DNA of 64,000 bases, taken from assembly GCF_011045165.1 (NCBI RefSeq), contig NZ_JAAKZI010000028.1, forward strand, positions 1 through 64,000, in the 5' to 3' direction. Of the stretch, positions 26,397 through 60,239 are shown piece after piece. The notes beneath the pieces are model-generated. The model was not told where the DNA came from and did not search any database. It saw nothing but the letters and a program-made list of their open reading frames with translations. Position numbers and translations under genes: made by a program. Source of the stretch: Arthrobacter silviterrae (GTDB lineage Bacteria; Actinomycetota; Actinomycetes; Actinomycetales; Micrococcaceae). Positions within the stretch are counted from its first letter, which is position 1. Every line of letters begins with the position of its first letter.

Positions 26397-26431
26397 CTGT
26401 TCATGGTGGTGGGGAGCCGAAACTACGTGAG
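26397..26431 (-). promoter_or_regulatory. ICE sigma-type promoter, copy 1 (DUF4192 gene)
   Basis: Read on the minus strand: CTCACGTAG, 14 bases, then CACCATGAACAG. It matches five other copies in the ICE with the same spacing. Transcription should start near 26393, inside the annotated reading frame, which supports the downstream GTG start. Confidence 0.75.
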
Positions 26432-26488
26432 CGCCGGTGTTCAGCGTTGGCCAATCGGTATGGAAAGTTAGGCTTTGGTGGCCAACAA

Positions 26489-27469
26489 CTAGTGCCCGCT
26501 CAGCAGCTGTTCGGCACGTGCGAGCAAGGTGCTCTCGCTCGGGAGAACAAGGCCAGATTGGCCGGATCGCATGACGCCGTCGTTGATCTCAATGTACCGA
26601 CGGTGCAGGTGCATCTTGGCGTTCGGGGCGAATGGAGTCAACATCCCGAACGGTGACGGGTTGAGGATGATGTCGCGCCGGCCTGCCGTTGCCCGCAACC
26701 AGGCGGGCCTCAATTGGAGGAGGAGCGCCCGTGCCTCGAGGTTTTGCAAGACGCTCCGCGCAGGGTTCTGCACGGCCGGAATGATGAGGCCGATTCCGAT
26801 GCAGGTGACCGCCACGGCCTCGGCCGGCCAGTAGGCGGAATCAAGGAATGCTGCAAGCGAGGTAGACGGGCGGGCACCTTGGCTGATCGAACCATAGGCA
26901 ACGCGATCAATGATGGCCGCGCATGACGCCGCACAACCGATGGCGATCAACAGAAACCCAATTCGAAATGCGGGGGAGTGCAGGTGCTTCCACGAACGAA
27001 TGCACATGACTGCCAGGTCCAGGCCGCACCATACCAAGAATGCCGAGCCGGACAACAGGAACGCTTTCATGCCCGGTTCGTCCGCATAGGCGACCTGGAG
27101 ATTTCCGCTGGTAGCACCTGGATTGCTCGTCAAAAAGCCGACGGCGGCGATCGTCCCAGCGGCGGCTACGGCCCAGCGGCCAGCCAACAGACGCCGTCGG
27201 CTGCTTGTATGGTCGGTGGAGACCGCGACGAGGATCGCGCTGCGAAATTGCCAGAAGCCGAGCATGACGGACAGGAGGGTGGCCAGTTTCACCAAGTTCC
27301 GCCCACCCAGAACCGTGTCAACGGCGAAGTAAACGTCCGGGACGTACAAGGTACAGGCAACGGCTGCAAACAATGCGGCCCAGAAGACATGCCGGCCCCG
27401 GGCGTCTTTGGCATGGGGAATGCGGACGAGCGCCAATGACCAAAGGATAGCCGCGGGGAGGTATTGCAT
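26489..27469 (-). CDS. Seven-TM protein, MAB_1171c/DUF6545-like putative transporter
   Basis: 326 residues. Seven hydrophobic helices can be placed at about 3-17, 29-50, 60-84, 94-116, 133-157, 170-195 and 203-235, followed by a roughly 90-residue soluble C-terminal part (LEARALLLQLRPAWLRATAGR...). This is the layout of the actinobacterial MAB_1171c family, whose function is unknown. Its ATG overlaps the ImmA/IrrE stop (TGATG). A membrane sensor or exporter for the adjacent protease and oxygenase are both possible. Confidence 0.72.
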   Translation of the reverse strand: MQYLPAAILWSLALVRIPHAKDARGRHVFWAALFAAVACTLYVPDVYFAVDTVLGGRNLVKLATLLSVMLGFWQFRSAILVAVSTDHTSSRRRLLAGRWAVAAAGTIAAVGFLTSNPGATSGNLQVAYADEPGMKAFLLSGSAFLVWCGLDLAVMCIRSWKHLHSPAFRIGFLLIAIGCAASCAAIIDRVAYGSISQGARPSTSLAAFLDSAYWPAEAVAVTCIGIGLIIPAVQNPARSVLQNLEARALLLQLRPAWLRATAGRRDIILNPSPFGMLTPFAPNAKMHLHRRYIEINDGVMRSGQSGLVLPSESTLLARAEQLLSGH

Positions 27470-27954
27470 CAGCCAAAGACTTCGCCGAAGGACAGGTGCT
27501 CAGCCACAGCCTTCGTCGATTTGCTGAGAATCCGGTGGGATAGGCGGTCGGCCAGCAATTCAGCCGCACGCTCCGCGGCAGCCGAGTAGCTGCCTCGGAA
27601 CAGCACATGCCGAATGGTGGCCGGATCAATGTTGGGGATGAGGGACAAGTTCGCTTCAGCAGGAATCGCACCGATGTCGTGCCTGAGAATCATGTGCCCA
27701 AACTCGTGGAGGACGATTTGCTGGCCGTGCCAGGGCGTTCGCGGGGTAGCGTGAAGAATCAGGTCCCGAGTTTCCAATCCGATCCACATCCCGCAAACAT
27801 CGGTTCCCGGCAGATCCGGCAGTTCGTCAACGATGATTGCCGTGCCCCGTTCGACGGCGAGATAGCTCTGCAGGGCCTGAAGCGTGAATCTGGGCGGCAG
27901 CTTAAGGCTTTGTTCGGCGATTTGAGCCTGCAGCTTTGCTGGCCGGGTATCCAT
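27469..27954 (-). CDS. ImmA/IrrE-family metallo-endopeptidase
   Basis: 161 residues. The zinc motif HEFGHMILRH is complete (two His and a Glu) and is preceded by the family's beta-sheet region (GMWIGLETRDLILHATPRTPWHGQQIVL). ImmA of ICEBs1 and IrrE/PprI cleave HTH repressors. Here the likely targets would be one of the EspR-like or winged-helix regulators, which is inference. The gene is coupled on both sides (TAATG with the oxygenase gene, TGATG with the 7-TM gene). Confidence 0.85.
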   Translation of the reverse strand: MDTRPAKLQAQIAEQSLKLPPRFTLQALQSYLAVERGTAIIVDELPDLPGTDVCGMWIGLETRDLILHATPRTPWHGQQIVLHEFGHMILRHDIGAIPAEANLSLIPNIDPATIRHVLFRGSYSAAAERAAELLADRLSHRILSKSTKAVAEHLSFGEVFG

Positions 27955-28970: not shown

Positions 28971-29291
28971 CTACGGCGGCTCTGCCCCGAAGTCTGCCAA
29001 CAGCTCCGAGAGACCCCGCTCCACCCGGCTTCGATCCGCCATGTAGCAGGGGTGCACTCCCGCTGCCGATGGATCCGTGATGCTGACATAGCCGTCCCGG
29101 CGAAGCACCCAAAGCTTGTGCCGAACGCGGCCGGGTTTCAGATCCAATGCTGCACAGATTTCGGGCATACCCATTGGCCCGGCAGCTGACAAGAGGTGCA
29201 GCAGCCTGGCGCTTATGGATGTGAATAATATTCTCGACATGACTGGAGCCACCCTTCGTTGCGCCCTCAGCTTCGCTACCGATGTGGACAT
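28971..29291 (-). CDS. Small winged-helix DNA-binding protein
   Basis: 106 residues to ATG 29291; ATG 29240 has a better ribosome site (AAGGGTGG) and may be the true start. The winged helix reads ARLLHLLSAAGPMGMPEICAALDL...VRHKLWVLRRDGYVSI, resembling MarR/ArsR-type regulators. It lies between the oxygenase operon and the divergent promoter of the 105-residue gene, so it may control either. Confidence 0.7.
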   Translation of the reverse strand: MSTSVAKLRAQRRVAPVMSRILFTSISARLLHLLSAAGPMGMPEICAALDLKPGRVRHKLWVLRRDGYVSITDPSAAGVHPCYMADRSRVERGLSELLADFGAEPP

Positions 29292-29320
29292 GTCTAATGA
29301 ATTAATGTACGCCTGATCCG

Positions 29321-29355
29321 CTCACGTTGGAAGAAGTGTGGCCAACCATGAACAA
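29321..29355 (+). promoter_or_regulatory. ICE sigma-type promoter, copy 2 (105-residue gene)
   Basis: CTCACGTTG at 29321-29329, 14 bases, then AACCATGAACAA at 29344-29355. It matches the consensus fully. The first gene downstream starts at 29418, leaving a 5' leader of about 60 bases that contains a 9-bp hairpin. Confidence 0.8.
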
Positions 29356-29417: not shown

Positions 29418-29735
29418 ATGCACGGGCATCCGCAAGTTGAAGCATTCCGTCAGGCCGCAGAACTGATGCGGGCTGAGCGGTACTGGCACCGCAACGACGA
29501 CGATGAGATTGAATTTCTGAGGGCACTGGCTGGCGTGGTCTCTGAGGTGGCCTATCACCTGGACGCATACCAAGCGATGGACCCTGACGGTCTGGCTGCA
29601 TATGTCTGCGCTGCGCGTCTCAGGCCGTGGGCGGGGACTGTCAGTGCCGAGCTGCTGCTGGTGACCGCAGTGGACAATGTGATCGAACGTCGTATTGCGA
29701 CAGTGTCGGCGGCGCGGAATACTGGGGGTCAGTAA
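29418..29735 (+). CDS. Hypothetical protein, 105 residues
   Basis: The start ATG has GGAGGGAG eight bases before it. The protein is soluble and mostly helical, with an acidic N-terminal half (AAELMRAERYWHRNDDDEIEFLRALAGVVSEVAYHL); no domain was recognised. It follows a sigma-type ICE promoter and a leader hairpin, so it belongs to the ICE regulon. The EspR-like gene starts 56 bases after it and may be co-transcribed. Confidence 0.65.
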   Translation: MHGHPQVEAFRQAAELMRAERYWHRNDDDEIEFLRALAGVVSEVAYHLDAYQAMDPDGLAAYVCAARLRPWAGTVSAELLLVTAVDNVIERRIATVSAARNTGGQ

Positions 29736-29790
29736 GGGCGCTTTCATTGCATCGGGTCTGCGCCATAACTGCCACCAGTGGGAGCCGGAA

Positions 29791-30291
29791 TTGCCAGAGA
29801 ACGCAAACGAGGCGGAGTCAGGTCCGTCGCCTCAGCAGCTCCTTGCACGCCGCCTCAATCTACTCCTGGATGTTGCTGCGGAAGAACGGGGCGCCCCGCT
29901 CACCTTCCTCGAGCTACAAAAGGAACTGGCCGCCCGCGGCGTGGGACTCTCTCGTGCCCGGTGGTCCTATATGAAGGACGGTTCTGGCCGACTAGTATCC
30001 GATCCACAGCTTCTCACCGCGATTAGTGAAGTCTTTGGCGTGGACCCGGACTACTTGCTGGGAAACGGGGGTCCGGAATTGCCGGAGGTCATAGACTCGC
30101 GCCTGGAATTCCTGAAAGCGTTAAGGGCTGCAAAGGTGAAGTCGTTTGCCGCTCGGGCCCTGGGCGAGGTTTCGCCGGAGACACTGCGAGTGATCACCAA
30201 ATACCTCAATGATGACATTAAACGGCACCGGGCCGGCAAAGCCGTTACAGGTCAAGAAGATAGCGTCGGTGAGCCGCCATCAGCTCCCTGA
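29791..30291 (+). CDS. EspR-like helix-turn-helix regulator, second copy
   Basis: About 166 residues from TTG 29791, preceded by GGGAG at six bases. It is a clear paralogue of the gene at 22.95 kb: LSRARWSYMKDGSG, VFGVDPDYLLG, LKALRAAKVKSFAARALGEVSPETLRVITKYL. The HTH and helical C-terminal parts match EspR in order. Its 3' end overlaps the convergent winged-helix gene by 47 bases. It is a candidate switch for the sigma-factor gene that follows. Confidence 0.75.
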   Translation: MPENANEAESGPSPQQLLARRLNLLLDVAAEERGAPLTFLELQKELAARGVGLSRARWSYMKDGSGRLVSDPQLLTAISEVFGVDPDYLLGNGGPELPEVIDSRLEFLKALRAAKVKSFAARALGEVSPETLRVITKYLNDDIKRHRAGKAVTGQEDSVGEPPSAP

Positions 30292-30568
30292 TGCGAGCCT
30301 TGTTTGTTGAATAGCGTGGTGCCCTTCCGCGCCTGAGGCCGGGTTCGACGTCGGCCTTGATGACGCCAGTTTCCTCCAGGATCAAGAGGTGCTTTGCAAC
30401 GCTCGGGGCCTCCGAGCTGACGGCTGCCACGATGTCCCCGCGGGTGGCCGGGCCGTGGTGGGCCAAATAGCGCAGGATTTCACTTCGCGCCCGGTTTCCA
30501 AAAGTGGCCACGGCCGCCTCAATCTCGGGAGACCAGTCTGCGTCTTCAGGCTGCGTGATGTGTGGCAT
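30245..30568 (-). CDS. ArsR-like winged-helix regulator, second copy
   Basis: About 107 residues from ATG 30568, aligned with the start of its paralogue at 23.4 kb. The winged helix is ARSEILRYLAHHGPATRGDIVAAVSSEAPSVAKHLLILEETGVI, and the RRGRAPRYS hinge is shared. It faces the sigma-factor gene across a shared upstream region and may control that promoter. A TTG at 30586 is a less likely start. Confidence 0.75.
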   Translation of the reverse strand: MPHITQPEDADWSPEIEAAVATFGNRARSEILRYLAHHGPATRGDIVAAVSSEAPSVAKHLLILEETGVIKADVEPGLRRGRAPRYSTNKARIRELMAAHRRYLLDL

Positions 30569-30613: not shown

Positions 30614-30641
30614 TTGACAATAACTAACTTAGCTCTAAAAA
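30614..30641 (+). promoter_or_regulatory. Housekeeping-type promoter of the ICE sigma-factor gene
   Basis: TTGACA (30614-30619), 16 bases, then TAAAAA (30636-30641). It differs from the ICE motif and fits the primary sigma factor. The leader to the sigma gene would be about 95 bases. The decamer AACTAACTTA between the boxes resembles AACTGACTTA upstream of the oxygenase operon. Confidence 0.55.
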
Positions 30642-30740
30642 TGGAAAGATATCCAAATGCAGAAGCGGTTGCCCAAGACTCTTGGTGGATTGCTTCAGAG
30701 CCCGGAATTCCGGCTCGCTTCCCTCGCGTGACACGGTCCC

Positions 30741-31757
30741 ATGATGGAAGCTCCAACAACGGCGCTTGAATCGACGCCGCTCGTCGAATACTCACCACAG
30801 GCACGAAATCCGGTGAATAAGATGGGCCTCAAGTCCAACGAACCAGACAGCAAGATCCGCCTCACCACAGATGCATCCTTGGAGCACCTCCCAGAGCCCG
30901 ACATCCCCATCGACCAGCTGATGCAAGCTGTTGAAAACACCCAGAAGTATGTCCGCTCCAGGCTTATGCGCCTGGGCAGGATCGACGACGTCGACGACGT
31001 CATGCAGGACATCCGCGTCGCCGCCTGGGAGGGGCTTGTAAAACAGCAATACCGGTATTTGCCTGGCACTACGTTTGGCGGGTGGGTGCAGGGAATTGCC
31101 GTTCACCTTTGCGCTGACCATATCCGCCATGTACTTGCCCACCCTCTGCTGCCGCTGATGTTTGATCCGGACGGGGACAGTCTCTCTCCCATTGACTACT
31201 CGGCAACCGAGAGCATGGACCAGGTTGCCGGGCACGAGTGGGCCGAGGAGGTCATCACTGCAGTCCGCAAAAATGTACCGGCCAAGAAGTGGGACTGGGC
31301 GGTCGAATGCCTTTCAACGCCGCGGCCGCGCACTGAGGCCCATCACCCGGGGTGGGAAGAGCGCAAGCGCTGGGACGCCGTATCAATCGTGCGGCAGATG
31401 GCCTTCACCGTGAGGGCGGCATTGGATGTGGAACCGGCAACCTTGTGCGACGAACCCACCACCATCGCCACCGCCGTCTCCTGCCTTCCGAGCCCGCTGC
31501 TGCAGATCGTTGCCGAACGGTTGGTCCTGACTGGTGTCCAGGGCGCTGAACGGGCCGCCCGTCTCACGGACTTGGCTGCCGAAACCGCCACTAGCTGGCG
31601 GTATCTTGAATCCAAGATTGGCCATGCCCGGCGGATGTACTTCGCTGCCCTCGAAATCCTCGAACACGCGGCGGCCGGCAACGCGACGCTAACCGATATC
31701 CGACCTTCGGCTGAGTGTGATGCCCTGGCCCTCGATGGAAGGGCGCTCACGTTGTAG
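30741..31757 (+). CDS. RNA polymerase sigma factor, sigma-70 family (ICE-encoded)
   Basis: 338 residues. Region 2 is recognisable at about residues 70-130 (VRSRLMRLGRIDDVDDVMQDIRVAAWEGL...GTTFGGWVQGIAVHLCADHIRH), with the DDVMQDI core of ECF-type factors. Region 4 is near 250-300 (LPSPLLQIVAERLVLTGVQGAERAARLTDLAAETATSWRYLESKIGHA). The two are separated by an unusually long linker of about 115 residues. It is followed 37 bases later by a gene with an ICE-type promoter, and is the best candidate to read all six copies of that motif. Confidence 0.78.
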   Translation: MMEAPTTALESTPLVEYSPQARNPVNKMGLKSNEPDSKIRLTTDASLEHLPEPDIPIDQLMQAVENTQKYVRSRLMRLGRIDDVDDVMQDIRVAAWEGLVKQQYRYLPGTTFGGWVQGIAVHLCADHIRHVLAHPLLPLMFDPDGDSLSPIDYSATESMDQVAGHEWAEEVITAVRKNVPAKKWDWAVECLSTPRPRTEAHHPGWEERKRWDAVSIVRQMAFTVRAALDVEPATLCDEPTTIATAVSCLPSPLLQIVAERLVLTGVQGAERAARLTDLAAETATSWRYLESKIGHARRMYFAALEILEHAAAGNATLTDIRPSAECDALALDGRALTL

Positions 31758-31780
31758 AACCTCCCGAGAACCATGAATAG
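31746..31780 (+). promoter_or_regulatory. ICE sigma-type promoter, copy 3 (TcpC-like operon)
   Basis: CTCACGTTG at 31746-31754, 14 bases, then AACCATGAATAG at 31769-31780. The first half lies within the last codons of the sigma-factor gene. The leader is only about ten bases, just the GAGGGGG ribosome site before ATG 31795. Confidence 0.8.
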
Positions 31781-31794: not shown

Positions 31795-32508
31795 ATGTCC
31801 GTAATGGTTGATCTGATTCGCCGCTTGGCGGGGCGCCGACGGGCCTTATTGGCTCTGGTGCTTGCTGCAGCTGTCGTCGTCTTTGTGGCAGTCGTTCTCG
31901 CCGCTCGGCCGCCACTTCCAAGCCCTTCGGCGTCGGCGCCCAAGCCCAGCCCCACCGTGGTGAGGCCGCCTGCCGGGGAGGTGCCCGCCGTCGTACCACC
32001 GCCGTCGCGTACTGAACCAGTCATGGCGCCGGACGAACCAATGACCAAGAACTACCGGATGCTGGCTGCTGCTGCGGCGCAGGCGATTTACACCTGGGAC
32101 GCGCGGTCTTCGACATATTCGCAGGTTTACGAGCGTCTGCGGTCATGGTGGGACGTGCTGCCCGACGGGTCCAATCCACTAACCGTTTTGGCCCAGGAAT
32201 TCCAGGCTACCGGTGTCACCGCGGCATCGTTCGCATCGCTGGAAGGCATGGACGCCTACCGGACCGCTGCTATCTCTACGGCCGCCTGCGATGCCCAGCT
32301 GGCCCAATTCCAGCAGAACCCGCCCCCATGGCAGGGGCTCCACGTATGCACGTTCACACTCAAGGTGGCTGAACACCAGAAGGGTGGCACGAACACGTAC
32401 ACGACACCCGTTAGCGTCATGGTCAACTGTCCTCCCGCCGCCAACGCGCCCGCCGACCGCTGCGTGATGGTGGGCTTCTACGCCTCAGCGGGCAGGATCG
32501 TGTACTGA
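31795..32508 (+). CDS. Single-pass membrane conjugation protein, TcpC/VirB8-like by position
   Basis: 237 residues with a short basic N-terminus, one membrane helix (about 17-38), a Pro/Ser/Ala-rich linker (40-80) and an extracytoplasmic domain of about 155 residues. That domain contains three cysteines. This is the layout of TcpC/VirB8 proteins of Gram-positive conjugation systems, but sequence similarity is weak, so the name rests on layout and neighbours. The next gene starts on its stop codon (TGATG). Confidence 0.6.
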   Translation: MSVMVDLIRRLAGRRRALLALVLAAAVVVFVAVVLAARPPLPSPSASAPKPSPTVVRPPAGEVPAVVPPPSRTEPVMAPDEPMTKNYRMLAAAAAQAIYTWDARSSTYSQVYERLRSWWDVLPDGSNPLTVLAQEFQATGVTAASFASLEGMDAYRTAAISTAACDAQLAQFQQNPPPWQGLHVCTFTLKVAEHQKGGTNTYTTPVSVMVNCPPAANAPADRCVMVGFYASAGRIVY

Positions 32509-33638
32509 TGGCTGTGCCGGCAGTTCTGTTGACGGTAGCGAAACGGCGCGCTCTTATTCGGCTCGTGACCGGCGCCGTTGGACTCTTGGTCCCCGTCCTC
32601 ATTATGGCCATGTGTGGCGGCTTGGCCCTTATGACGACGACGGCCGCACAGGGAAGTACGACGGCGTGCCTCACCACAGTCTCGACAGTCGCCGACACGC
32701 CAGCTCAGTCGGGCAACGGACTGTCGATCCCGTTGGGTTCCGGACCTCCCATCGTTCTCTCCGCGGGACAGCTTGCCGTGGCACGGGCCTACATCGCCGT
32801 TGGCAAGTCACTGGGAGTTCCTGACAGTGGCCTGGAGATCGCCATCATGATGTCGCTGCAGGAATCGGGGCTCCGGGTACTCGCAAATTCGTCTGTCGCG
32901 AGCTCCCTGGCCTTCGCCCACGACGGAGTCGGCTCCGACCATGACTCACTTGGGACGGCCCAGCAGCGACCCTCGGCCGGGTGGGGGACCGTGACTGACC
33001 TGATGAACCCTTTGTATGACGCCGAGGCGTTCTTCGGCGGGCCGACCGGGCCAAACCATGGATCCCCGCGCGGCCTGCTCGACATCCCTGGCTGGGCGTC
33101 CATGCCGAAAGGCGCTGCGGTGCAGAGTGTTCAGGAATCGGCGTTTCCGGAACTGTATGCGCAATGGGACGGGGAAGCCCATGCCATAGTCGCGGCACTC
33201 AAATCCGGGACTCATGTGGCGAAATGTCCTTCAGCCGTTGGCTCCGTCCAGGATCCGCAGCTTCCTGCCAACCTCAGCAAGCTGCGGCGCGACATCATCC
33301 ATTACGCCGAGGAAGGCATTGGCGGGAGCTATGTCTGGGGCGGAACAGCGTTCAAGGCGTGGGACTGCTCCGGTTACGTCCAATGGGTCTACGGACAGGC
33401 GGGGATACCGCTGCCTCGGACGGAGCAGTGGACCGGTGGGCATCCAACGTCAGTGCCTCAGCCGGGCGACCTGGTCGTCCAGAATCCGGACGGACCCAAC
33501 CACTGGGGCCACGTCGGGATATACGCCGGCAACGGCATGATGTTCAGTGCATTGAATCCAACGGTTGGGACCTTGTTGCATCCGGTGGCGTGGAATGTTG
33601 GGACCCGGTACTTTGCACTTTTGCGCGCCGGGACATAG
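32508..33638 (+). CDS. Conjugation-associated cell-wall hydrolase with NlpC/P60 domain
   Basis: 376 residues. An N-terminal membrane segment (about 22-47) is followed by a lysozyme-like/transglycosylase-like region (GLEIAIMMSLQESGLR...). The C-terminal NlpC/P60 domain (about 255-376) has Cys in WDCSGYVQW and His in HWGHVGIY. It would open peptidoglycan for the mating channel, like VirB1-type proteins. It is translated with the TcpC-like gene. Downstream the conjugation genes are interrupted by the catabolic island. Confidence 0.85.
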   Translation: MAVPAVLLTVAKRRALIRLVTGAVGLLVPVLIMAMCGGLALMTTTAAQGSTTACLTTVSTVADTPAQSGNGLSIPLGSGPPIVLSAGQLAVARAYIAVGKSLGVPDSGLEIAIMMSLQESGLRVLANSSVASSLAFAHDGVGSDHDSLGTAQQRPSAGWGTVTDLMNPLYDAEAFFGGPTGPNHGSPRGLLDIPGWASMPKGAAVQSVQESAFPELYAQWDGEAHAIVAALKSGTHVAKCPSAVGSVQDPQLPANLSKLRRDIIHYAEEGIGGSYVWGGTAFKAWDCSGYVQWVYGQAGIPLPRTEQWTGGHPTSVPQPGDLVVQNPDGPNHWGHVGIYAGNGMMFSALNPTVGTLLHPVAWNVGTRYFALLRAGT

Positions 33639-45071: not shown

Positions 45072-45362
45072 ATGTTCCTGGCTGCGCCGGTCGATCCCGG
45101 CATCACACCCAATGCAAGCTTTCCCTTCCTCGAGTCGCTGAAGGAGATTGGCGGCGGCATTCTGGTCGGCGCCTTCATCATCATTGCCATAGTCGCCATC
45201 TTGGGCGCGGCGATGCTCCTGGCCGGCAAGTTGAGCCAGTCTTCGCGGCTCGCTTCGGGCGGCGGAATGATCCTGCTGTGGACGGGCCCCGTCGCGGCCA
45301 TCCTCGGCGGGATCAACGGCTACATCCTGTGGTCGCAGACAGCATTCCACCTCGGCTTTTAG
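45072..45362 (+). CDS. Small two-TM conjugation protein (DUF6112-like, VirB2 position)
   Basis: 96 residues with two membrane helices (about 28-53 and 64-88) joined by a short basic loop. A short N-terminal segment precedes the first helix. It resembles the DUF6112 proteins that open actinobacterial conjugation operons and has the size and layout of a VirB2-like pilin or channel subunit; that role is inferred. Start ATG follows TAGGAG. Confidence 0.68.
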   Translation: MFLAAPVDPGITPNASFPFLESLKEIGGGILVGAFIIIAIVAILGAAMLLAGKLSQSSRLASGGGMILLWTGPVAAILGGINGYILWSQTAFHLGF

Positions 45363-48252: not shown

Positions 48253-49706
48253 AAAAGCACTTCGAACATGTGAGCTTCATTCCGGCAGGTGAGTCCCGCT
48301 CGGACCGGGACGCACGACGGCGGCGCGAACGTGGGGATTTCGACCCACCCCGTGCTTCGCTCCTGGCCAGATTGGCCCACCTGGATGGCGAGAGTTCCCC
48401 GTCACGCTCGCAGGGGGATTGGGGGAGCCGGGAAGCAGCCTCACTCCGGGGGCCGCACCGCCTTCGCCCGGCACCCCACCGGGCATCGACCATGACGTTT
48501 GCCGCCGCCTACCCGTTCCTGACCGAGTCGGGACTGGGCCACGAAGGCACCTACATCGGCACCGACGTCTTCGGCTCCGGTGCATTCTCCTACGATCCCT
48601 GGATCCTCTACGACAAGGGCGTGATCAGCGGCCCGTCCATCGTGGTCATCGGCACGGTGGGGACAGGCAAGTCCATGTGCGGGAAGTCGCTGGTTGCTCG
48701 GTCGTTGACACTGGGCCGTAAAGCGGCCGTGGCATCCGATCCCAAGGGGGAGTGGGTCCCCGTCGCCAAGGCACTGGGCGGCAAGGTCATCTCCGTGGGA
48801 CCGGGCAAGCCGGCCCGGGTCAACCCGCTCGACGCCGGACCCCGGGCAAAGTCCGTCTCCGACGAGCAATGGCAGGCCGTCGTGCGCCAGCGCCGCCGCC
48901 ACCTGCTCGTGGCGCTGGTGTCCCTGATGCGCCAGGGCCAGCCCATGAGTCCCGTGGAACACACCGCCCTGGACATGGCACTCACCGATGCCGTGGCGGC
49001 CAACAGCACCCCCACTTTGCCCATGGTGCTGGAGTACCTGCTCAACCCCAGCCCCGAGACCGTGGCGCTAGTCGGACGGGACGGAGGGACCGGCGTCGGG
49101 CATTCACTGCGGCGCACCGTGGCAGGTGACCTCGAAGGTATGTTCGATGCGCCGTCCACGGTGGCCTTCGACGCTGATGCACCCATCATGGTCATGGACA
49201 CCTCCGCCCTGATTGGCGCCTCCGAGCAGGCGCTGTCCCTCGCGGCCGCCTGCGGGGCGACCTGGCTGGAAGCCGCCGTGACCAATCCCGACGGCGCCAA
49301 GAGGCTCGTGGTCTACGACGAGGGCTGGCGAATGCTCGCCGACCCGTACATGCTGGCCAAGATGAGCGAGCAGTGGCGCCTGGCCCGCACGTACGGAATC
49401 GCCAACCTGCTGATCATGCACAAGGTGGCCGACCTCAACGAGATCGGCGACGGCAGCAGCGGGCTCCGCCAGAAGGCGCTGGGCCTATTGACGGAAGCTG
49501 ACACCCGTATCATCTACCGACAAAAACATGACGCCATGCGCCTGACCAAGGAAGCCCTGGGCCTGACCGAAGCCGAATGCGAGCACGTCGAAAACCTGCC
49601 CAAGGGCATGGGGCTTTGGAAGGTCGGCAACAGGTCATTCATTGTCGCCAACCGCATCACCACCGACGAGATGGCGGTGTTCGGCACGGATGGGGGGATG
49701 CGCTGA
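48249..49706 (+). CDS. VirB4/TraC-like conjugation ATPase
   Basis: About 485 residues from GTG 48249 in the GTGA overlap. Walker A is GTVGTGKSMCGKS (about residues 135-147). Walker B is LVVYDEGW, followed by the arginine-rich WRLARTYG segment and a typical DLNEIGDGSS stretch. It is the ATP-binding part of the secretion motor; the N-terminal part normally found in VirB4 is carried by the preceding SCO6880 gene. Confidence 0.85.
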   Translation: MKKHFEHVSFIPAGESRSDRDARRRRERGDFDPPRASLLARLAHLDGESSPSRSQGDWGSREAASLRGPHRLRPAPHRASTMTFAAAYPFLTESGLGHEGTYIGTDVFGSGAFSYDPWILYDKGVISGPSIVVIGTVGTGKSMCGKSLVARSLTLGRKAAVASDPKGEWVPVAKALGGKVISVGPGKPARVNPLDAGPRAKSVSDEQWQAVVRQRRRHLLVALVSLMRQGQPMSPVEHTALDMALTDAVAANSTPTLPMVLEYLLNPSPETVALVGRDGGTGVGHSLRRTVAGDLEGMFDAPSTVAFDADAPIMVMDTSALIGASEQALSLAAACGATWLEAAVTNPDGAKRLVVYDEGWRMLADPYMLAKMSEQWRLARTYGIANLLIMHKVADLNEIGDGSSGLRQKALGLLTEADTRIIYRQKHDAMRLTKEALGLTEAECEHVENLPKGMGLWKVGNRSFIVANRITTDEMAVFGTDGGMR

Positions 49707-51514
49707 TGTCGCGCCGGTTGGATGACGGCAACCCGCAGCTCAACGCAGCGCTGATTGCCGCGGCCGTGTACCTGGTGTTTTGTTTCCTCGTCCAAGCCGC
49801 TGCAGCCACCGTAGTGCGATGGTCCTGCCACGCCGCGGAGCCCTGGACATTCAGCCCCGCGGCGGGAATCGGCCTGTTCGCAGGACGCATGCACTGGATC
49901 ACCAATGCACCGGCTTCATGCCACGTGGGAACAGCATCGGTGTGGATGATCATTGGCCCCGCGCTCGCAGGCGTGCTGGTCCTCACGGTTGCCGGCTACT
50001 TCGCGTGGCGGGCTTGGCGGCAGTCTGGCTCCTGGCTCCGCAAGGACATTCTCAGCCGCGAGGGTGTTGCCCGGCGTGCCGAGATCGTGCGGGACTTTGG
50101 CTCCCGCGCCGTTGTTCGGCGCGGAAAATATACGCGCCCCGGGCTGACCAAACCGCGCGTTGAGCAGGTCTCCTGGACAGTGGGGAAGTCCCGCGGCGTC
50201 ACCGTCCACGTCTCCACGGAGGAATCCATGGTCATCCAGGGCGCGCCGCGCTCGGGCAAGGGGCTGTACCTGATCATCAACGCCATACTCGACGCACCCG
50301 GCGCTGTGGTCACGACCTCTACCCGGGCAGACAACCTGGTGGTGACCATGAAGGCCCGCGCTTCTGGCGGCCGGCCGGTGACGGTGTTCGATCCACAGGG
50401 CATGTCGGGCTTGCCGACGACGCTGAGGTGGTCACCTGTCCGGGGCTGCGTGGACCCGGACATTGCCACCCGCCGGGCACTCGTCATTACCGCGGACACC
50501 GAGTTCAAGGGCGAAAATGCGGCGTGGCAGAAGCGCGCCGTTATCGTCCTTCAGTGTCTGCTTCATGCCGCAGCCCTGTCAGGCGACGGCGTCCGAGGAT
50601 TCCGCCGCTGGGCCTCAAACCCGGTCCTGGCCAAGGAGGCACTGGAAATCCTCGGCAGACCTGAAGCAGCCCTTGGCTGGCAGGCTGATCTCATGGGGAT
50701 TATCGACGATGACCCCCGCAATACCTCCAATTCCTGGATCGGCGTGAGCGCCGCCGTCGCACCTCTCTCCTCACCAACCGTCCTGTCCGCCCTTGACCCC
50801 CGCGGTGAGGCGGAGCAATTTGACCCGAAGGACTTCATCCGGCAGCGCGGCACGCTCTATTTGATCGGCACTAAGTCCGGGGCTGCCGCGGCCGGCCCAT
50901 ACCTGTCTGCGCTGATCGACGACATCGACCACGCCGCCAGGGAAATGGCCTTCGTGGCTCCCGGCGGAAGGCTGGACCCTCCGCTTTCACTCATTTTGGA
51001 CGAGATCGCCAACCTCTCTCCGTGGCCCGGGCTGCCAGTGGTGCTGTCCGACGGCGGCGGAATCGGAATCTCCACGATTGTTGTGCTGCAATCCCTGTCC
51101 CAGGCACGGTCCGGGTGGTCCATCGACGAGGCCGCCACCATCTGGGACGCGGCCATTATTAAGGTCATCTTCGGCGGCGGCTCCGACGAACGTGACCTCC
51201 GGGCTCTGTCCGGGCTGATCGGGGAGCGCAGCACCACGGTCAACACGAGGTCCTGGTCGTCCCAAGGGAGCCAGCACGGCGAGCAGGTCCGGGAAACTGC
51301 GGTCATTCCTCTGCATGAGATTCGCCGGCTCCCAGCAGGGACGGCGATCATGCTGGGCCGGAGGACGCGTCCCATCCTGCTGGACCTGCGTGAGTGGCAC
51401 AAGCGCAAGGACGCCGTCCAGCTGGGACTTTCCAAGGCCGAGACCGAACGCGAACTTGCCGACGGCCACCGGCGCCGCCAGGAAGTCGTAATGAGAACTG
51501 AAACCACGGATTGA
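49706..51514 (+). CDS. VirD4/TraD-type coupling protein
   Basis: 602 residues from ATG 49706, which shares a base with the VirB4 stop (TGATG). Two membrane helices (about 15-37 and 75-97) precede the ATPase domain with Walker A GAPRSGKGLY and Walker B LILDEIANLSPWPG. It also carries the C-terminal TraM-recognition-type part. It brings the relaxase-DNA complex to the channel. Confidence 0.87.
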   Translation: MSRRLDDGNPQLNAALIAAAVYLVFCFLVQAAAATVVRWSCHAAEPWTFSPAAGIGLFAGRMHWITNAPASCHVGTASVWMIIGPALAGVLVLTVAGYFAWRAWRQSGSWLRKDILSREGVARRAEIVRDFGSRAVVRRGKYTRPGLTKPRVEQVSWTVGKSRGVTVHVSTEESMVIQGAPRSGKGLYLIINAILDAPGAVVTTSTRADNLVVTMKARASGGRPVTVFDPQGMSGLPTTLRWSPVRGCVDPDIATRRALVITADTEFKGENAAWQKRAVIVLQCLLHAAALSGDGVRGFRRWASNPVLAKEALEILGRPEAALGWQADLMGIIDDDPRNTSNSWIGVSAAVAPLSSPTVLSALDPRGEAEQFDPKDFIRQRGTLYLIGTKSGAAAAGPYLSALIDDIDHAAREMAFVAPGGRLDPPLSLILDEIANLSPWPGLPVVLSDGGGIGISTIVVLQSLSQARSGWSIDEAATIWDAAIIKVIFGGGSDERDLRALSGLIGERSTTVNTRSWSSQGSQHGEQVRETAVIPLHEIRRLPAGTAIMLGRRTRPILLDLREWHKRKDAVQLGLSKAETERELADGHRRRQEVVMRTETTD

Positions 51515-51526
51515 TTGGAGCAAGCA

Positions 51527-51991
51527 ATGGATGAGGAAGATTCATTTGAATACACCGTCGGCGGGGGAGCGGAGGACGAATTTGCCGCGATGCTGTTTGG
51601 CTCCGCCGAAGGCAAGCGGTCAAAGCGGATACCAATGACCTACAGGTGGCGGGACATGGATCCCCGTACGGCAGAGACGGTCTGGAAGCACCTGGGGGAG
51701 TGGGTCCAGTGGTTGGTGGACACGTATCACCTGCCCACCTCTGTGATCCCGGACTGCTGGTGGAAGCACAGCGACATGGTGGCAGAACTGTACGGGCTCC
51801 AGCGGGCCGAGCAAGCCTCCTACACCGAGGACGACGGCGGCTTCGGTCCCATTGCCTTTCACGAGCGGCTGACATCCAGCATCGAGCGGATGCGTGACCG
51901 CACGCGCACGGCGGGGTGTGTCGGCCTGCAGGTCCACAGGGAGACGGTACGCCGGGTATTGCCTCCTGGCGGCCCCATTCCCCAGTCTTAG
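51527..51991 (+). CDS. DUF4913 domain-containing protein
   Basis: 154 residues from ATG 51527 (TTGGAG eight bases before). The DUF4913 pattern is clear: YRW, WKHLGEWVQWLVDTY, IPDCWWKHSDMVAELYGL, FHERL. The family is found in actinobacterial conjugative plasmids and ICEs beside the coupling protein; its function is unknown. It is probably the last gene of the conjugation operon. Confidence 0.78.
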   Translation: MDEEDSFEYTVGGGAEDEFAAMLFGSAEGKRSKRIPMTYRWRDMDPRTAETVWKHLGEWVQWLVDTYHLPTSVIPDCWWKHSDMVAELYGLQRAEQASYTEDDGGFGPIAFHERLTSSIERMRDRTRTAGCVGLQVHRETVRRVLPPGGPIPQS

Positions 51992-52018: not shown

Positions 52019-52053
52019 TTCACGCTGTTTGGGGTTCTGGCCCCTATGAACAT
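52019..52053 (+). promoter_or_regulatory. ICE sigma-type promoter, copy 5 (ArdC gene)
   Basis: TTCACGCTG at 52019-52027, 14 bases, then CCCTATGAACAT at 52042-52053. It is the least perfect copy, but the spacing is identical. The start codon is about 50 bases downstream. Confidence 0.68.
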
Positions 52054-52075: not shown

Positions 52076-52103
52076 AAAGATCTATGCGGTGGAGGTGGCG
52101 GCA

Positions 52104-53309
52104 ATGAGTGCTGATCCGTTGGAATCCGAACCGGCCAAGGGGGACGGCCTCTTGGAACGGCAAGCGCCGCCGCCACCAAGCCATCCGGCGCCGGCCGAAC
52201 GCGTGGAGGCTTTAACGGAAGGTCTCATCGAACTGCTCGAACAGGCTGTCAACGAGCCGTGGCGCTGGCAAAAACTCCTGGACAACTCAGCCACCCTTTG
52301 GCGCTACTCCGGCGGGAACGCCGCGATGCTGATGGCCCAGATGCAGGAACGCGGCAAGGAGCCGCCGACTCTCGTGGCCGGCTACAAGGAGTGGGAACGC
52401 CACGGAAGGTACGTACTCAAGGGTGAACACGCCCTGTGGGTGATCGCGCCACGAACCGCAAGGGCTGAAGAGGAGATAGATCCGAAGAATCCACTGTCGG
52501 TGGCCGCTGCCACAGAGTCTGGCGGCTCCAAGCGAACACGGATTGTTGGCTGGCGGGGCCAGGCCGTCTTCGACGTTTCACAAACTGAAGGCGAGCCGCT
52601 CATGGTGCCGACCCGTGGTGCCGAAGTTGATCCAAGCATCGAAGGTAAGCATCAGGAGCTATGGCAATCACTCGTTACTGTTGCGGGGCAGCGGGGGTTC
52701 GCTGTTGACGTTTCCCAGAGTCAGCACTCGCTGGCTAGCGGCTACACCAACTTTGCTCGGCACCTCATCAGCGTCGGTGAATGGCTTGAGCCAGTCGAAC
52801 GCGTTGCGGTCCTCGCCCACGAAATCGGGCACGTCATGCTTCACGGCCCCGACGACGCTCTGGGCAAGCTCTACGGCAGCAGCACCGAGCACCGCGGACT
52901 CGCCGAGGTGGAGGCCGAATCGATTGCCTACACGGTCCTGAAAGCCCACGGAATCGACCGCGGACCGCAGTCATCGAGCTACTTGGCCGGTTGGGCAGAT
53001 GCAGTCCTGGAGGCCGAAGCGGATTCAATCATGCAATCAGCCGCCGGCTGCAAATTACTGTCCCGGGCAGACATTGCCAAGTCCGTCCTCGCGAGAGTGA
53101 CGTCAGCGTCCAAAAGCATCCTGGACGTCACCCAGCCTGCGGACTCGGGTGGTCGGCTCTCGCCTGGATCCAGGGATTTGGCTTTAGCCTCAAGGTCGCC
53201 GCATCATGCTGTTGTCACGCGTACACGATCCGCTATAACCAATGGGCTGATATTAGGCTGCGGTAATCGTATTGAATACTACGATATTTTTCAAAACCGA
53301 CTGGACTGA
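52104..53309 (+). CDS. ArdC-like antirestriction protein (ssDNA-binding domain plus metallopeptidase)
   Basis: About 401 residues from ATG 52104, preceded by GGAGG at eight bases (GTG 52089 is less likely). The N-terminal ArdC part (WQKLLDNSATLWRYSGGNAAMLMAQM, residues about 55-85) is followed by a zinc motif HEIGHVMLHG near 240. It would protect incoming single-stranded DNA from restriction. The last roughly 60 residues look unrelated and AT-rich, so the original C-terminus may have been replaced. Confidence 0.82.
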   Translation: MSADPLESEPAKGDGLLERQAPPPPSHPAPAERVEALTEGLIELLEQAVNEPWRWQKLLDNSATLWRYSGGNAAMLMAQMQERGKEPPTLVAGYKEWERHGRYVLKGEHALWVIAPRTARAEEEIDPKNPLSVAAATESGGSKRTRIVGWRGQAVFDVSQTEGEPLMVPTRGAEVDPSIEGKHQELWQSLVTVAGQRGFAVDVSQSQHSLASGYTNFARHLISVGEWLEPVERVAVLAHEIGHVMLHGPDDALGKLYGSSTEHRGLAEVEAESIAYTVLKAHGIDRGPQSSSYLAGWADAVLEAEADSIMQSAAGCKLLSRADIAKSVLARVTSASKSILDVTQPADSGGRLSPGSRDLALASRSPHHAVVTRTRSAITNGLILGCGNRIEYYDIFQNRLD

Positions 53310-56099: not shown

Positions 56100-59000
56100 T
56101 TAGAGCGACGGCCCGACATCGATAAGGGGCTTGTGGACAATTGGCGCGTGCATGGCAGCCTCGCCCTTGTCCGCCAACCCAGCCGAGCTTGTGAGCATCG
56201 ACTGGATCAGCCGTTGGATCCGGTCATGTTCCTGCGTCTGCTCCCATTCAAAAGTGGCGGGCACCGGGCCGAGCGGATCCGCGGGCGTTTCGATGTCCCA
56301 GCGGTCACGGTAGGCGGCAATGTCACTTACGACGGCGGCCCAGCGTTGGGCGTCAATCTCGCCTCCCGCTGTGGCTCGGAGGGAGCGAACCCACGGGGGC
56401 ATGCCCGTAAGGGCTTCCCTGGCCACCAGGGTGCGGCGGCTGGCGGTACGGGAGCGTATCTGGTTGATCATCTCCTCCAGGTCTGGCCTCGTGGTGGTCA
56501 GTTCCTCACTCAGCGCGTCCAACTGTCTGGAATGTCCTGTCCCGGTAATTGTGCGTAGGCGTGCGTGGATGACTGCCATGTGGTCCTGGGCGTCGCCTGG
56601 GTGTAGGAGTGCGCCCTCCAGCACCCGCGTAGCACCTCCGGGATTCAATGCGGTGGCCCGGCGCCACGCAGCCACGCCGGCACCCCAGGAGGGGGACTGC
56701 TGAAGGTAGGTGACGACGTCGGGCATCACCTTGGCGATGACCGCGGCAAGGTGCTCGCCGGCGGCGAGTTGGGCGAGGTAGTCGTATTCTGCGGCGAGCC
56801 TCTCGAGCGTGTCTGCCTTGTTGGCCTCGTTGGTGCGGACTTCGTGGGCCGTGCGCTCGGCCCCTTCCGCGGCGAGGACTTCGCCGAGGATCTGCCGCCA
56901 GCTGGATGACGGGATGGTCATGGCCGGTTCATCGGCGGCGGGGTTGGATTCGCACACATAGGCGGTGTTGCTGGTGCGGCCGCGGGTCATGCCGACGTAG
57001 AAGAGTTCGCGGGTCAGTCGGCCTTGGGTGAGGACGGTGTGGCTGGTGTCGACGGTAATGCCCTGAGACCGGTGGGCCGTGGTGGCGTAGCCGAGTTCGG
57101 CTGATTCAGCGAGATAGCGGGGATCAAGCCGGACTGTTGCACCGGTGTCCACGCGCCGCCCGAGGACGCTGCCGTCCCTTCGCGGGCGTTTGATGATCCG
57201 GAGGAGGGTGCCGTTGCGCAGGTAGTCGCCGTTGCTGTCGGTGAGGTGGCGGTTGTTCTTCCGGGCGATGATCATGTCCCCGCGGCCCGCGGTCAGGCCG
57301 TCGCTGAGGGAGATGGTGTGTTCTGCGTCGACGAGTCCTGCGGCGACCAAGTCGGCATGTGCGCGCTCGTTCAAGGTGGTGACTGTGTCGTTGTCCGGCG
57401 CGATGAGGATCGATGACTTCCCATCTTGTCGGTCCGATTCCCAACGTTGGTAGGCTTCCTCAACCATGGTGTCGAAGGCACCGTGCCGGATTCGGCCGTG
57501 GGCGGCATACTCATCCACGGCTTCGATCGTGCCGTCGCGGAGTTGCAGGGATGCGGGGCCCTCCCAGGCGTGAATGAAGCGGTGGATGCTGGTCAGTTCC
57601 ACGGCCTTGCCGCTGCGGTGGAGCCAGCCGAGGATGCCGCCGGCGTCGATCGCGTCAAGTTGGGCCGGGTCGCCCACCAGCAGCAGTTTTGCCCCCGCGT
57701 CAGCTGCCTGGTGGACCAGCCCCGTGAGTTGGATGGTCGAGACCATGGAAGCCTCATCAATGATGACGAGCTGGTTCCGCTTGAATTGCCATTGCGCCTG
57801 CTGGAGGGAAATGCTGGCCAAATACTTGTTGGCCAGGCCGCCCGGCCGCTTCCGGGTTTGTTCCAACGAGCGGAACCGTTCGGCGCGGTTGTTGGCGCCC
57901 TGTCCGACACTTTCGTGGAGCCACTTGGCAACGTTTTCCGCGACGATCCCCAGTTCATGTGCCAGGACTTCGGCGCTGGCCGCGGCCGGTGCAAGCCCGA
58001 CGACGCTGCCCTCGCCGTGGGTGTCCTCCCACGCTGACTTGATGGCCGCCAAGGTGGTGGTCTTGCCGGATCCTGCGGGGCCAACGACGGCGTCCAGCCG
58101 GTTTCCGCTGTCGAGGACAGTCTGTGCCGCGGAGAGCTGGTCCGGGGCGAGGCCGTAGCCTGAGCGGTGCCGGTATGAGGCGAGGTGGCTGGAAGCCTGG
58201 GCGACAGCGATAGCCGGCCCGCCGGTGTTGTTCCTTGCCTGCAGGATGAATTGTTCATTGGCGAGGGTGGAGGCTGAGGTGAAGAGGCGGGCGCCGGGGA
58301 AGTCGAAGACCGTGTGGCCGGCGAAGGTGAGGTCCTGGGTGGCGTTGACGGGGAGCCGGTAGCGGGCGTTGTTGAGCGGAACGGATTTGCCTTGGGCGTT
58401 GCTGGTGATGGCGTCGATCATGGCGCGGCGGTCGGCGGGGGAGTCGCAGCGGATGTCGGCGCAGGTGCGTTCCGCTTCGGCGAGGATGTTCCAACGGTTC
58501 CAGGTGGCCCGGCGTTGCGCGACGCCGTCGCGGGTGACGGTTCCGGCGGCATCGACCCATTCGGGGGTGAGGTCGCAGGCGCGGACTGGCCGTAGCTTGG
58601 AGCGGTGGGTGGTGGCGTTGACGATGGATTTGGGGGTCTGGCCGAGACCTGTTGCGCGGCTTTGCCATCCTGCTCGCAGATCGTTCAAGGGTTTCGGGGT
58701 TTCGTCCTTTGCCTGGCGAGTGGAGAGGGTGGCGATTTGTCGGAGTTTGATGACGGTGGTGGCGCTGGGCGTTTTGCCGTGTGCCTTGTGCCAGTCGCGG
58801 ATGAGTCTGTCCGTTTCAATGTTGATGTTGCGGCTGCGGTTGGAGAATTCCTGGATGAGTTCGTTGTTGATGCCGATGAGTTCGTGGCTGGGGTTGCGCT
58901 GCCGGGCGATGGGGGCGCGGAAGTCCGCGTCCGTGCCCAGGGTGCGCTGGAGCTCGTCAAAGAGCAGGCCGTTGTATTGTTCGCTGGCCGCGACGACGGC

Positions 59001-59648
59001 CTTGAACAAAGTTCGGGAGTCCAGGGTTGCCCAGGCACCGTCGCTGGCCCGCTGGACCCGGTTGGCGATGACGAGGTGGGTGTGGAGCTGGGGATCGCCC
59101 GTGCGGGATTCCCAGTGGTCGAATGCTGCAGCCATGGCTCCCGTGGTGCCGACGTGGGCCACGCCTCCGCGCCCGGTGCGTGTGTGGATGGCCTGGTCTT
59201 CCAGCCAGTCAAGGACCGTGTTGAGCGCGCGGTGGTGGGCGGCGAGGACTAGTTGTTGGACGTCCTTGTCGGCGAGGGCCCAGAGTACGGAGACGGATTT
59301 GGGAGCGCTGAAGGTTAGGTCGAAGCCGGCGACGGCGTGGCGTTGCCGCTCCTCGCCATTCCGGGCGGCAACAGTGGTGTGTCCGTGGAGCCTGCCGAGG
59401 ATGGCCTGGGTGTCGGGGTGCGTGGCATGGGAAAAGACTGACTTGGCGTCTGCTGTGGTGACTTGTTGGAGGGGCCGGCGGTTGATGCCGCCAAGGCCGT
59501 GACCCAGCCAACGTCCCTGCGGGGTGCCCGCCTTGACGTAGTACGTGGTGGCATCGGGAATGGGTGAGAGGGCGTCGTCCTGCATGGTGGTCTTCAGCAG
59601 GTAACTCAGTCCGGTGTCGGCGGTCAGCCGGAAGAGCGAGACGGTCAT
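56100..59648 (-). CDS. MobF-family relaxase/helicase (TrwC/TraA-like)
   Basis: 1182 residues. The N-terminal relaxase domain has the candidate nicking Tyr16 and the metal triad His178, His189 and His191 (FDHW...QLHTHL). A SF1B helicase part follows, with Walker A GPAGSGKTT near 525 and a DEAS box (VIIDEASM). The far C-terminus has the YVGMTRGR motif. It nicks oriT and unwinds the transferred strand. The ATG overlaps the upstream stop (ATGA). Confidence 0.93.
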   Translation of the reverse strand: MTVSLFRLTADTGLSYLLKTTMQDDALSPIPDATTYYVKAGTPQGRWLGHGLGGINRRPLQQVTTADAKSVFSHATHPDTQAILGRLHGHTTVAARNGEERQRHAVAGFDLTFSAPKSVSVLWALADKDVQQLVLAAHHRALNTVLDWLEDQAIHTRTGRGGVAHVGTTGAMAAAFDHWESRTGDPQLHTHLVIANRVQRASDGAWATLDSRTLFKAVVAASEQYNGLLFDELQRTLGTDADFRAPIARQRNPSHELIGINNELIQEFSNRSRNINIETDRLIRDWHKAHGKTPSATTVIKLRQIATLSTRQAKDETPKPLNDLRAGWQSRATGLGQTPKSIVNATTHRSKLRPVRACDLTPEWVDAAGTVTRDGVAQRRATWNRWNILAEAERTCADIRCDSPADRRAMIDAITSNAQGKSVPLNNARYRLPVNATQDLTFAGHTVFDFPGARLFTSASTLANEQFILQARNNTGGPAIAVAQASSHLASYRHRSGYGLAPDQLSAAQTVLDSGNRLDAVVGPAGSGKTTTLAAIKSAWEDTHGEGSVVGLAPAAASAEVLAHELGIVAENVAKWLHESVGQGANNRAERFRSLEQTRKRPGGLANKYLASISLQQAQWQFKRNQLVIIDEASMVSTIQLTGLVHQAADAGAKLLLVGDPAQLDAIDAGGILGWLHRSGKAVELTSIHRFIHAWEGPASLQLRDGTIEAVDEYAAHGRIRHGAFDTMVEEAYQRWESDRQDGKSSILIAPDNDTVTTLNERAHADLVAAGLVDAEHTISLSDGLTAGRGDMIIARKNNRHLTDSNGDYLRNGTLLRIIKRPRRDGSVLGRRVDTGATVRLDPRYLAESAELGYATTAHRSQGITVDTSHTVLTQGRLTRELFYVGMTRGRTSNTAYVCESNPAADEPAMTIPSSSWRQILGEVLAAEGAERTAHEVRTNEANKADTLERLAAEYDYLAQLAAGEHLAAVIAKVMPDVVTYLQQSPSWGAGVAAWRRATALNPGGATRVLEGALLHPGDAQDHMAVIHARLRTITGTGHSRQLDALSEELTTTRPDLEEMINQIRSRTASRRTLVAREALTGMPPWVRSLRATAGGEIDAQRWAAVVSDIAAYRDRWDIETPADPLGPVPATFEWEQTQEHDRIQRLIQSMLTSSAGLADKGEAAMHAPIVHKPLIDVGPSL

Positions 59649-60202
59649 TGGTCCGGCACGAGGGTGTTGGTACGCCAGCCGCGGCGGGCGAAAATTTCCC
59701 GCGTTGCCTTGTCGAGGGGGAGGCCCAGGCGGGCGGAAAGTTCGAACAGCCGGCCGGCAATTTGCATGAGCTCCTTGATGTCTGCGCCCTGGCTATGTAG
59801 AAGGCGTGCATTCTCAAGCTGCAGTTCCGTGACCTGCGCTTTCAACTCCGGGATTTCGCAGGCGATGTCGACATTGATGGTGGCCAGGTCCCGGAGCCTG
59901 GTCCGAAGTTTTTCGGTCTCGCGCTCATGCTGGGCAGCTTCGGCTTCGAGTCTTTGTCTGGCATGTGCGTCCGCCGCGGCGAGCTGCCGCCGACATTTTT
60001 CCTGGGTATTCTCCAATCGCATTCTGCCCGCCGCGGCCGAGTCCTTGAGTTGCGACTGCAACATTTGCCGGGACTTCGCCCGGTTGCGCTTCTGCCATTC
60101 CCGGTCACGATGGCGATGAGAACATGTGGGGGAGCAGTACCGTTGCGTGCCGCGTCGCGGGTCAAAGGAGGTTCCGCACTCGGCGCAAATTTTCGTATCC
60201 AT
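59645..60202 (-). CDS. Zinc-ribbon/coiled-coil accessory protein of the relaxase operon
   Basis: 185 residues. The N-terminus is a small zinc ribbon (CAECG...RYCSPTC). A basic patch and a long coiled coil (about 50-150, rich in Glu, Arg and Leu heptads) follow. It is co-transcribed with the relaxase and may bind oriT or dimerise the relaxosome. The start ATG lies about five bases past the -10 half of promoter copy 6, so the mRNA is probably leaderless. Confidence 0.7.
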   Translation of the reverse strand: MDTKICAECGTSFDPRRGTQRYCSPTCSHRHRDREWQKRNRAKSRQMLQSQLKDSAAAGRMRLENTQEKCRRQLAAADAHARQRLEAEAAQHERETEKLRTRLRDLATINVDIACEIPELKAQVTELQLENARLLHSQGADIKELMQIAGRLFELSARLGLPLDKATREIFARRGWRTNTLVPDQ

Positions 60203-60204
60203 AC

Positions 60205-60239
60205 CAGTTCATGGTGCTGGAGAGGGATTACAGCGTGAG
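60205..60239 (-). promoter_or_regulatory. ICE sigma-type promoter, copy 6 (relaxase operon)
   Basis: Read on the minus strand: CTCACGCTG, 14 bases, CACCATGAACTG. Transcription should begin at about 60202, the first base of the accessory gene. Confidence 0.78.

Follow-up and report, generated by a model that had tools for sequence, protein, structure and literature searches.

Accounts of how integrative and conjugative elements (ICEs) are controlled usually centre on repressors, activators or excision. In SXT/R391, one ICE-borne regulator, SetCD, governs a dispersed regulon, but SetCD is an activator complex, unlike the sigma factor considered here; with the phage sigma factors T4 gp55 and SPO1 gp28 a mobile element does run its own genes as a set, but these belong to lytic phages and not to an integrated conjugative element. 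Sigma factors of the extracytoplasmic function (ECF, group 4) type, such as Escherichia coli sigma-E and Mycobacterium tuberculosis sigma-H, are compact proteins of roughly 200 amino acids that use two short promoter elements at a rigid spacing, usually with an AAC core in the −35 element. Here, an ICE of Arthrobacter silviterrae was analysed in a 64,000-nucleotide stretch of DNA (the window; positions 1 to 64,000 of contig NZ_JAAKZI010000028.1, RefSeq assembly GCF_011045165.1). A two-part motif recurs before its transfer and maintenance genes, and from sequence comparison this motif is probably their core promoter, most likely read by an ECF-like sigma factor that the ICE itself encodes.

Two described conjugative systems invite comparison. 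Conjugative transposons of Clostridium difficile carry sigma factor-like genes, which the accessible part of the account describes among accessory genes and for which it names no promoter set (PMC3158075); in the Arthrobacter ICEs, by contrast, the sigma gene lies in a conserved cassette and the transfer modules share a motif. Tn916 is likewise an ICE with coordinated transfer-gene expression, its conjugation genes being expressed from Porf7 after circularisation, in an account whose title names termination and antitermination (PMC11658703); the Arthrobacter ICE differs in having several dispersed apparent promoters that share one motif. No ICE run by its own sigma factor was found in the literature as covered by titles or the start of abstracts, most subscription papers being outside reach, and the accessible part of PMC9632896 held nothing on one.

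The original prediction for the window was of six copies of the motif at one fixed spacing, each directly upstream of a gene or operon and none outside the ICE, with the single sigma-70-family factor of the element as the obvious reader. Pattern scans and matrix ranking recovered all six sites at that spacing (Table 1). Five carry at most 3 mismatches in 19 positions to CTCACGTTG-N14-AACCATGAAC, for which the chance expectation in the window scan is 0.02; the sixth, at ardC, has 5/19 mismatches, was picked up by a shorter pattern and has a counterpart at the same place in relatives. A matrix was trained on 21 sites from other genomes and applied to 66 kb of the contig. Ranks 1-7, with 27-43 bits, went to the six sites and to one more that lies past the window end (contig position 65819-65858); the next-best match reached 15.9 bits, and the highest scores in 12 simulated sequences of 66 kb were 7-21 bits. 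Because the training sites were chosen with the window's own consensus, this test is not fully independent. The six copies are real, but the contig has at least seven; the plus-strand coordinates held, and the two minus-strand sites had to be shifted by two bases. The claim that no site lies outside the ICE was nearly right, the one degenerate site beyond the integrase gene (22503) scoring within the null range.

Across the 4.29 Mb genome there were nine exact matches to TCACGYWG-N16-MYATGAAY. Seven are on the window's contig; the other two, on contigs C16 and C42, lie upstream of DUF4192 genes and share their contigs with further ICE-type genes. Two matches were found at one mismatch, and with up to two mismatches the total was 61, compared with 14 for the reversed-pattern control. 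The site before the window's DUF4192 gene contains an ATG that is in frame with DUF4192 there but, from coordinates, out of frame in the relative L059, and it is therefore probably not the start codon of that gene.

To place the motif among relatives, 197 family genomes were searched with the sigma protein, giving 21 strong homologs (E < 1e-30), and a scan of genome contigs gave 59 sigma loci, nearly all in Arthrobacter and close relatives; no relative was found among viral contigs. The motif stands before the same genes in dozens of elements, in varying subsets of DUF4192, p29418, tcpC, the transfer operon, ardC and p59645-relaxase, and in many of them before int as well. Its spacing is rigid: the two half-motif cores gave 85 matches at offset 26 and no more than 5 at each of 12 other offsets in loci that were not deduplicated, and unique intergenic sites upstream of ICE genes numbered 106 at offset 26 against 0-13 at each of ten others. 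Counted gene by gene, 33 of 46 upstream regions of the transfer operon and 12 of 14 of p59645 contain the offset-26 pattern.

The sequence around the motif was then considered for promoter architecture. When 14 transfer operons of sigma clade D (clades are described below) were aligned on the motif, identity was 0.24-0.30 across the 110 bp upstream, which is the random level, rose to 0.86 in the left half and was 0.81-0.88 in the right half and beyond it; a similar profile, with 0.19-0.43 upstream, is seen for nine DUF4192 upstreams and for the transfer operons of the A and B clades. Since identity at the transfer operon is random just upstream of the motif, the motif looks like a promoter core, and no sigma-70 consensus promoter was found in 44800-45100, before the window's transfer operon. 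At the relaxase operon, the first T of the motif lies 36 nt from the start codon in 15 of 15 unique elements (12 ATG and 3 GTG, counting only p59645 matches that begin at query residue ≤4), which leaves little room for a ribosome-binding site. If transcription starts at that codon, TCAYGT would lie at about −36 to −31 and CCATGA at −12 to −7; assuming a start at or near it, the motif has the −35/−10 geometry of a two-element promoter with one rigid spacing. Together with the rigid offset in relatives, this supports the suggestion that the spacing suits −35/−10 recognition.

Genes other than the relaxase operon have leaders with ribosome-binding-like sequences after the motif. A leaderless type IV secretion system (T4SS) operon beginning at a GTG two bases past the 44991 site was considered and dropped. 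The open reading frame there (45026-45544) is a spurious shadow frame over the true first gene and not for annotation; the conserved first gene begins at 45072. The leaderless idea therefore concerns the relaxase operon only. The transfer-operon leader has a hairpin that is conserved, with compensatory changes at some positions, in 12 loci of clades A and B, of which 9 are distinct; 90.7% of cells are paired, and the covariation score was reached by 7 of 500 shuffles. Here, GTGA and TCAC could form an outer stem beside the ribosome-binding site. Several copies per element and a partial inverted repeat might also be expected of a replication, transfer-origin or silencing element repeated along the ICE, in which case the conserved blocks would not be promoters at all; this is hardly credible for a motif that is oriented towards the following gene, keeps a fixed distance from the relaxase start codon and is followed elsewhere by leaders of the kind just described.

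The distribution of the motif follows that of the sigma gene and its transfer genes. The T4SS protein p46786 was found at ≥64% identity in 17 places in 13 of the 197 genomes, and in all 17 a strong sigma match lay on the same contig within ~16 kb. Strong sigma matches without such a partner were 4 of 21: two in genomes without the T4SS partner, one at a contig end and one copy with two stops. The strict motif TCAYGTMG-N16-MYATGAAC was present in 9 of the 13 genomes with the close T4SS protein, in 0 of 23 with only a more distant one and in 9 of 161 with none; in two of these last nine it lies among ICE gene remnants (G024, G009), and five share one similar stretch. Of the 28 more distant T4SS places, the surroundings of 9 were scanned (329,511 bases) and contained neither a sigma homolog nor the strict motif; there, a relaxed pattern gave 6 matches at offset 26 and 1-9 at other offsets. 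A host chromosomal sigma factor might read the motif in place of the ICE sigma, and the genome has 27 Sigma70_r4_2 matches, some of them in other helix-turn-helix (HTH) proteins such as response regulators. We regard this as very unlikely: the nine exact matches in 4.29 Mb all fall within the element or beside ICE-type genes, the scanned more distant ICE loci, which lack this sigma, also lack the strict motif, and the promoter variants partly follow the ICE sigma clades.

These clades were taken from a midpoint-rooted tree of 51 proteins, in which all four (A-D) are monophyletic. The underlying alignment, A2, comprises the window protein and those of 50 of the 59 loci; left out were L162 (stop codon), L159 and L161 (split matches), and L143, L144, L146, L148, L151 and L152. 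Contig pieces without a sigma gene were given clade labels by genome and best match, not by the tree. Among sites within 700 bp of an ICE gene, position 29 was G in 16/19 from clade C but in 8/91 from the other clades (A 1/28, B 6/24, D 1/39). With a 200 bp limit the figures became 16/16 and 3/80, the contrary sites being excluded by the limit, and a clean clade-wide switch at this position was withdrawn after the 700 bp recount. Within 200 bp, the left half in clade A is TCACG, a T-to-C change, in 15/26 sites, and position 29 stays A in 26/26; 'CATGA' in this clade denotes A at position 29, the first base C being variable in some sites. The site lists need TCAYG and ATG(A/G), so degenerate sites are missed, and the inverted-repeat character of the core may have let some reverse matches into the counts.

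Relaxase sites were chosen by gene, with no pattern, and gave ATGG in 4/4 from clade C and ATGA in 11/11 others, with a left half of TCAYG in 13/15. The Fisher values calculated alongside take no account of relatedness, one of them uses the 200 bp counts, and no weight is given to them. On the protein side, R129, in predicted region 2.4, is R in 45/45 non-C proteins and A or S in 6/6 from clade C. A symmetric dimer would lead one to expect both half-sites to change together, which was not seen, the pattern-free test being the 15 relaxase sites. The halves vary independently, and a two-domain sigma factor therefore fits better than a symmetric dimer. Spacing, footprint, start-codon geometry, half-site variation and the 17/17 sigma linkage together lend good support to what had been proposed for the motif, namely a promoter function, an ICE-wide regulon and a bipartite reader.

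The sigma protein itself provides the first of several points that weigh against this reading. The window protein matches PF04542 (sigma region 2) at 25.2 bits, with a cut-off of 24, and 51/51 members were matched at E up to 1, but no Pfam match to sigma region 4 was found among the 51. A Foldseek search with the sigma model placed ECF sigma factors at ranks 1-6 (6jbq, 6koo; probability 0.98-0.99), with a best E of 0.042 and none below 0.001, for a model of mean pLDDT 71. By hhalign, both ends aligned co-linearly with host ECF-type proteins at E 2.3e-4 and a probability of 45%, residues ~240-300 pairing with a host ECF sigma4; of the nine host proteins in this set, two look like response regulators by sequence. 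The likeness to ECF factors would lie in the predicted two-domain layout, the low-scoring top structural matches and profile alignment, and a putative promoter made of two short elements at a rigid spacing. The differences are a length of 338 amino acids, well beyond the compact ECF size, a long extra inter-domain stretch, the missing region 4 match, the lack of a recognised anti-sigma factor and a left half, TCAYGTNGT, without the AAC core. On these weak scores the protein looks like a divergent, enlarged ECF-type factor with a long insertion; membership of the sigma-70 family, as first proposed, is supported in region 2, and the protein is not a typical factor of groups 1-3.

Further points of this kind come from the sites. 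The offset-26 pattern is present in only 18 of 49 tcpC and 10 of 21 ardC upstreams, and gene upstreams without it are partly near matches (e.g. CCACG, TCAGG) and partly unexplained. On the sigma-bearing plasmid of strain ERGS1:01, the tcpC homolog lacks a site; the only one present precedes an HTH gene and the integrase. Among eight strict matches in outlying places, four are without a nearby ICE gene homolog; for the other four, such homologs lie within the surrounding sequence retrieved, in one case at a distance of 8 kb. Upstream of the relaxase-operon motif the sequence is also conserved (0.85-0.90 in three 10-bp windows), for which there is no explanation, and it is conserved upstream of ardC too, where the previous gene lies close. 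The rule at position 29 is not clean, as all six clade B sites with G stand before int and clade C has A in 3/19 sites, and clade C is set apart by 24 alignment columns, R129 being one of them.

Other regulators also travel with the sigma gene. An EspR-like XRE gene and a divergent ArsR-like gene accompany it in 59/59 loci; with all three equally widespread, the reader cannot be picked out by linkage alone. In clades B and D the halves TCATG and CATGA are inverted copies of each other, as they might be in an operator, and some near-palindromic sites located between divergent genes fit the motif on either strand. A dyad operator for one of these two proteins, acting on a host sigma-A promoter, would account for such features. 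We nevertheless judge this unlikely, given the separate variation of the motif halves, the absence at the transfer operon both of conserved upstream sequence where a housekeeping promoter would lie and of a sigma-70 consensus promoter, and a distance of 25 bp between half-site centres, which from general knowledge is wide for one winged-helix dimer.

The control regions of xre and of arsR-sigma, moreover, mostly carry other elements. The dyad TRGACNNGTCYA is found upstream of xre or p29418 in 45/60 loci, with 29 further matches elsewhere in 1.24 Mb, and its GTAGACGGGTCTACA form before p29418-xre in 40/60; in clade A, the p29418-xre genes carry the motif too. In the arsR-sigma region, TTGACR-N17-NANANT is present in 51/60 loci, with nine further matches elsewhere, and all nine occurrences of GATAC-N5-GTATC fall in this region. 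We infer that these elements belong to the neighbouring regulators. To call the sigma factor the obvious reader was thus too quick, although both competitors are disfavoured by their own control elements and by the half-site variation. The 105-residue protein encoded before xre, detected in 16/59 loci, was considered as a candidate anti-sigma factor but found no support in its model, which is all-helical and without a convincing fold match.

With the ICE sigma as the favoured reader, the motif would consist of a −35 element TCAYGTNGT, contacted by sigma4, and a −10 element CCATG(A/G), contacted by sigma2, at one rigid spacing. The sigma gene would itself be under a different, conserved housekeeping-type promoter, TTGACR-N17-NANANT, in the spacer of which some elements have a dyad that may be bound by the divergent ArsR-like protein. 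Host sigma-A would then transcribe the ICE sigma gene once repression lifts, after which the ICE sigma would activate the secretion, relaxase, ardC, DUF4192 and, in many elements, integrase genes together.

The features of the element are collected in Table 1. The hallmarks of an ICE are present, namely an integrase, a relaxase, a coupling protein and a T4SS ATPase, the VirB4-like label of the last resting on weak Pfam P-loop matches. The integrase N-terminal fragment that follows the degenerate 22503 site (22565-22696) is 73% identical to a clade C integrase over 45 amino acids, and site and fragment are probably what is left of a different element that occupied this place. Between the two transfer modules, 34078-44747 holds metabolic cargo (GntR, a lyase, an ABC transporter, deacetylases, a PrpD-like protein and amidohydrolases), in which the matrix scan found no motif site above 8 bits. 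A 1108-residue protein without a Pfam match (60487-63813; L056 15042-18365) shares 82% identity with one encoded on a different contig of this genome, beside a DUF4192 paralog with a motif site.

Table 1. Motif sites, control elements and genes of the A. silviterrae ICE (window coordinates; bits are matrix scores)
Feature	Position	Strand	Remarks
Motif site, putative DUF4192 gene promoter	26399..26431	-	33.3 bits; seen at same gene in relatives
Motif site, putative promoter of 105-residue protein, probably also of EspR-like xre gene	29321..29353	+	30.1 bits
Motif site, putative tcpC-like/nlpC promoter	31746..31778	+	36.0 bits; begins within 3' end of sigma gene
Motif site, putative T4SS operon promoter	44991..45023	+	43.0 bits; footprint
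Motif site, putative ardC promoter	52019..52051	+	27.5 bits
Motif site, putative p59645-relaxase operon promoter	60207..60239	-	38.7 bits; start codon at 60202
Degenerate motif site before integrase N-terminal fragment	22503..22535	+	15.9 bits
Predicted ICE sigma factor, 338 amino acids, ECF-like	30741..31757	+	sigma2 ~57-133; sigma4-like helices ~240-300
Putative sigma gene promoter, conserved, housekeeping-type	30614..30642	+	TTGACA-N17-AAAAAT
ArsR-like winged-helix regulator, divergent from sigma	30245..30568	-	start codon inferred
EspR-like XRE regulator	29683..30291	+	open frame
Dyad TGGACATGTCTA upstream of p29418-xre genes	29285..29296		
105-residue protein	29418..29735	+	all-helical in model
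tcpC-like and NlpC/P60 genes	31795..33638	+	NlpC/P60 by Pfam; tcpC label from original prediction, without Pfam match
Hairpin, 5' leader of T4SS operon	45033..45052	+	
True first transfer-operon gene	45072..45359	+	small hydrophobic protein
TrbL, EccE-like, VirB4-like ATPase, coupling protein, further gene	45372..51991	+	EccE-like: weak match; VirB4-like: weak P-loop matches
ArdC-like antirestriction protein	52089..53309	+	
TrwC-type relaxase/helicase	56100-59648	-	operon spans 56100..60202
185-residue gene preceding relaxase (p59645)	59645-60202	-	
Tyrosine integrase of ICE	23817..25133	-	

Among the related elements, the near-palindromic sites between divergent genes lie in L074 (12714-12758) and L089 (~12080-12124) and are possible bidirectional promoters. 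One locus, L163, in a record named Sporosarcina beigongshangi, is a clade C element otherwise known from Arthrobacter relatives, and reflects either contamination or wide transfer.

The window's genome (G000) contains three sigma paralogs with transfer genes, on contigs C28, C16 and C31 and in clades A, B and C, the two besides the window's own falling in B and C. In both halves, the promoters of these three clades favour different bases, although the preferences are not absolute. It is conceivable, if doubtful, that a whole Arthrobacter ICE family is run by private sigma factors that drift together with their promoters, partly insulating co-resident ICEs from one another. If a dedicated sigma factor does serve promoters throughout the element, it would be a one-gene switch for the entire transfer programme. 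The promoter variants across dozens of elements offer a natural data set for sigma-promoter co-evolution, and the ICE sigma and its promoter could perhaps serve as an orthogonal pair for Arthrobacter.

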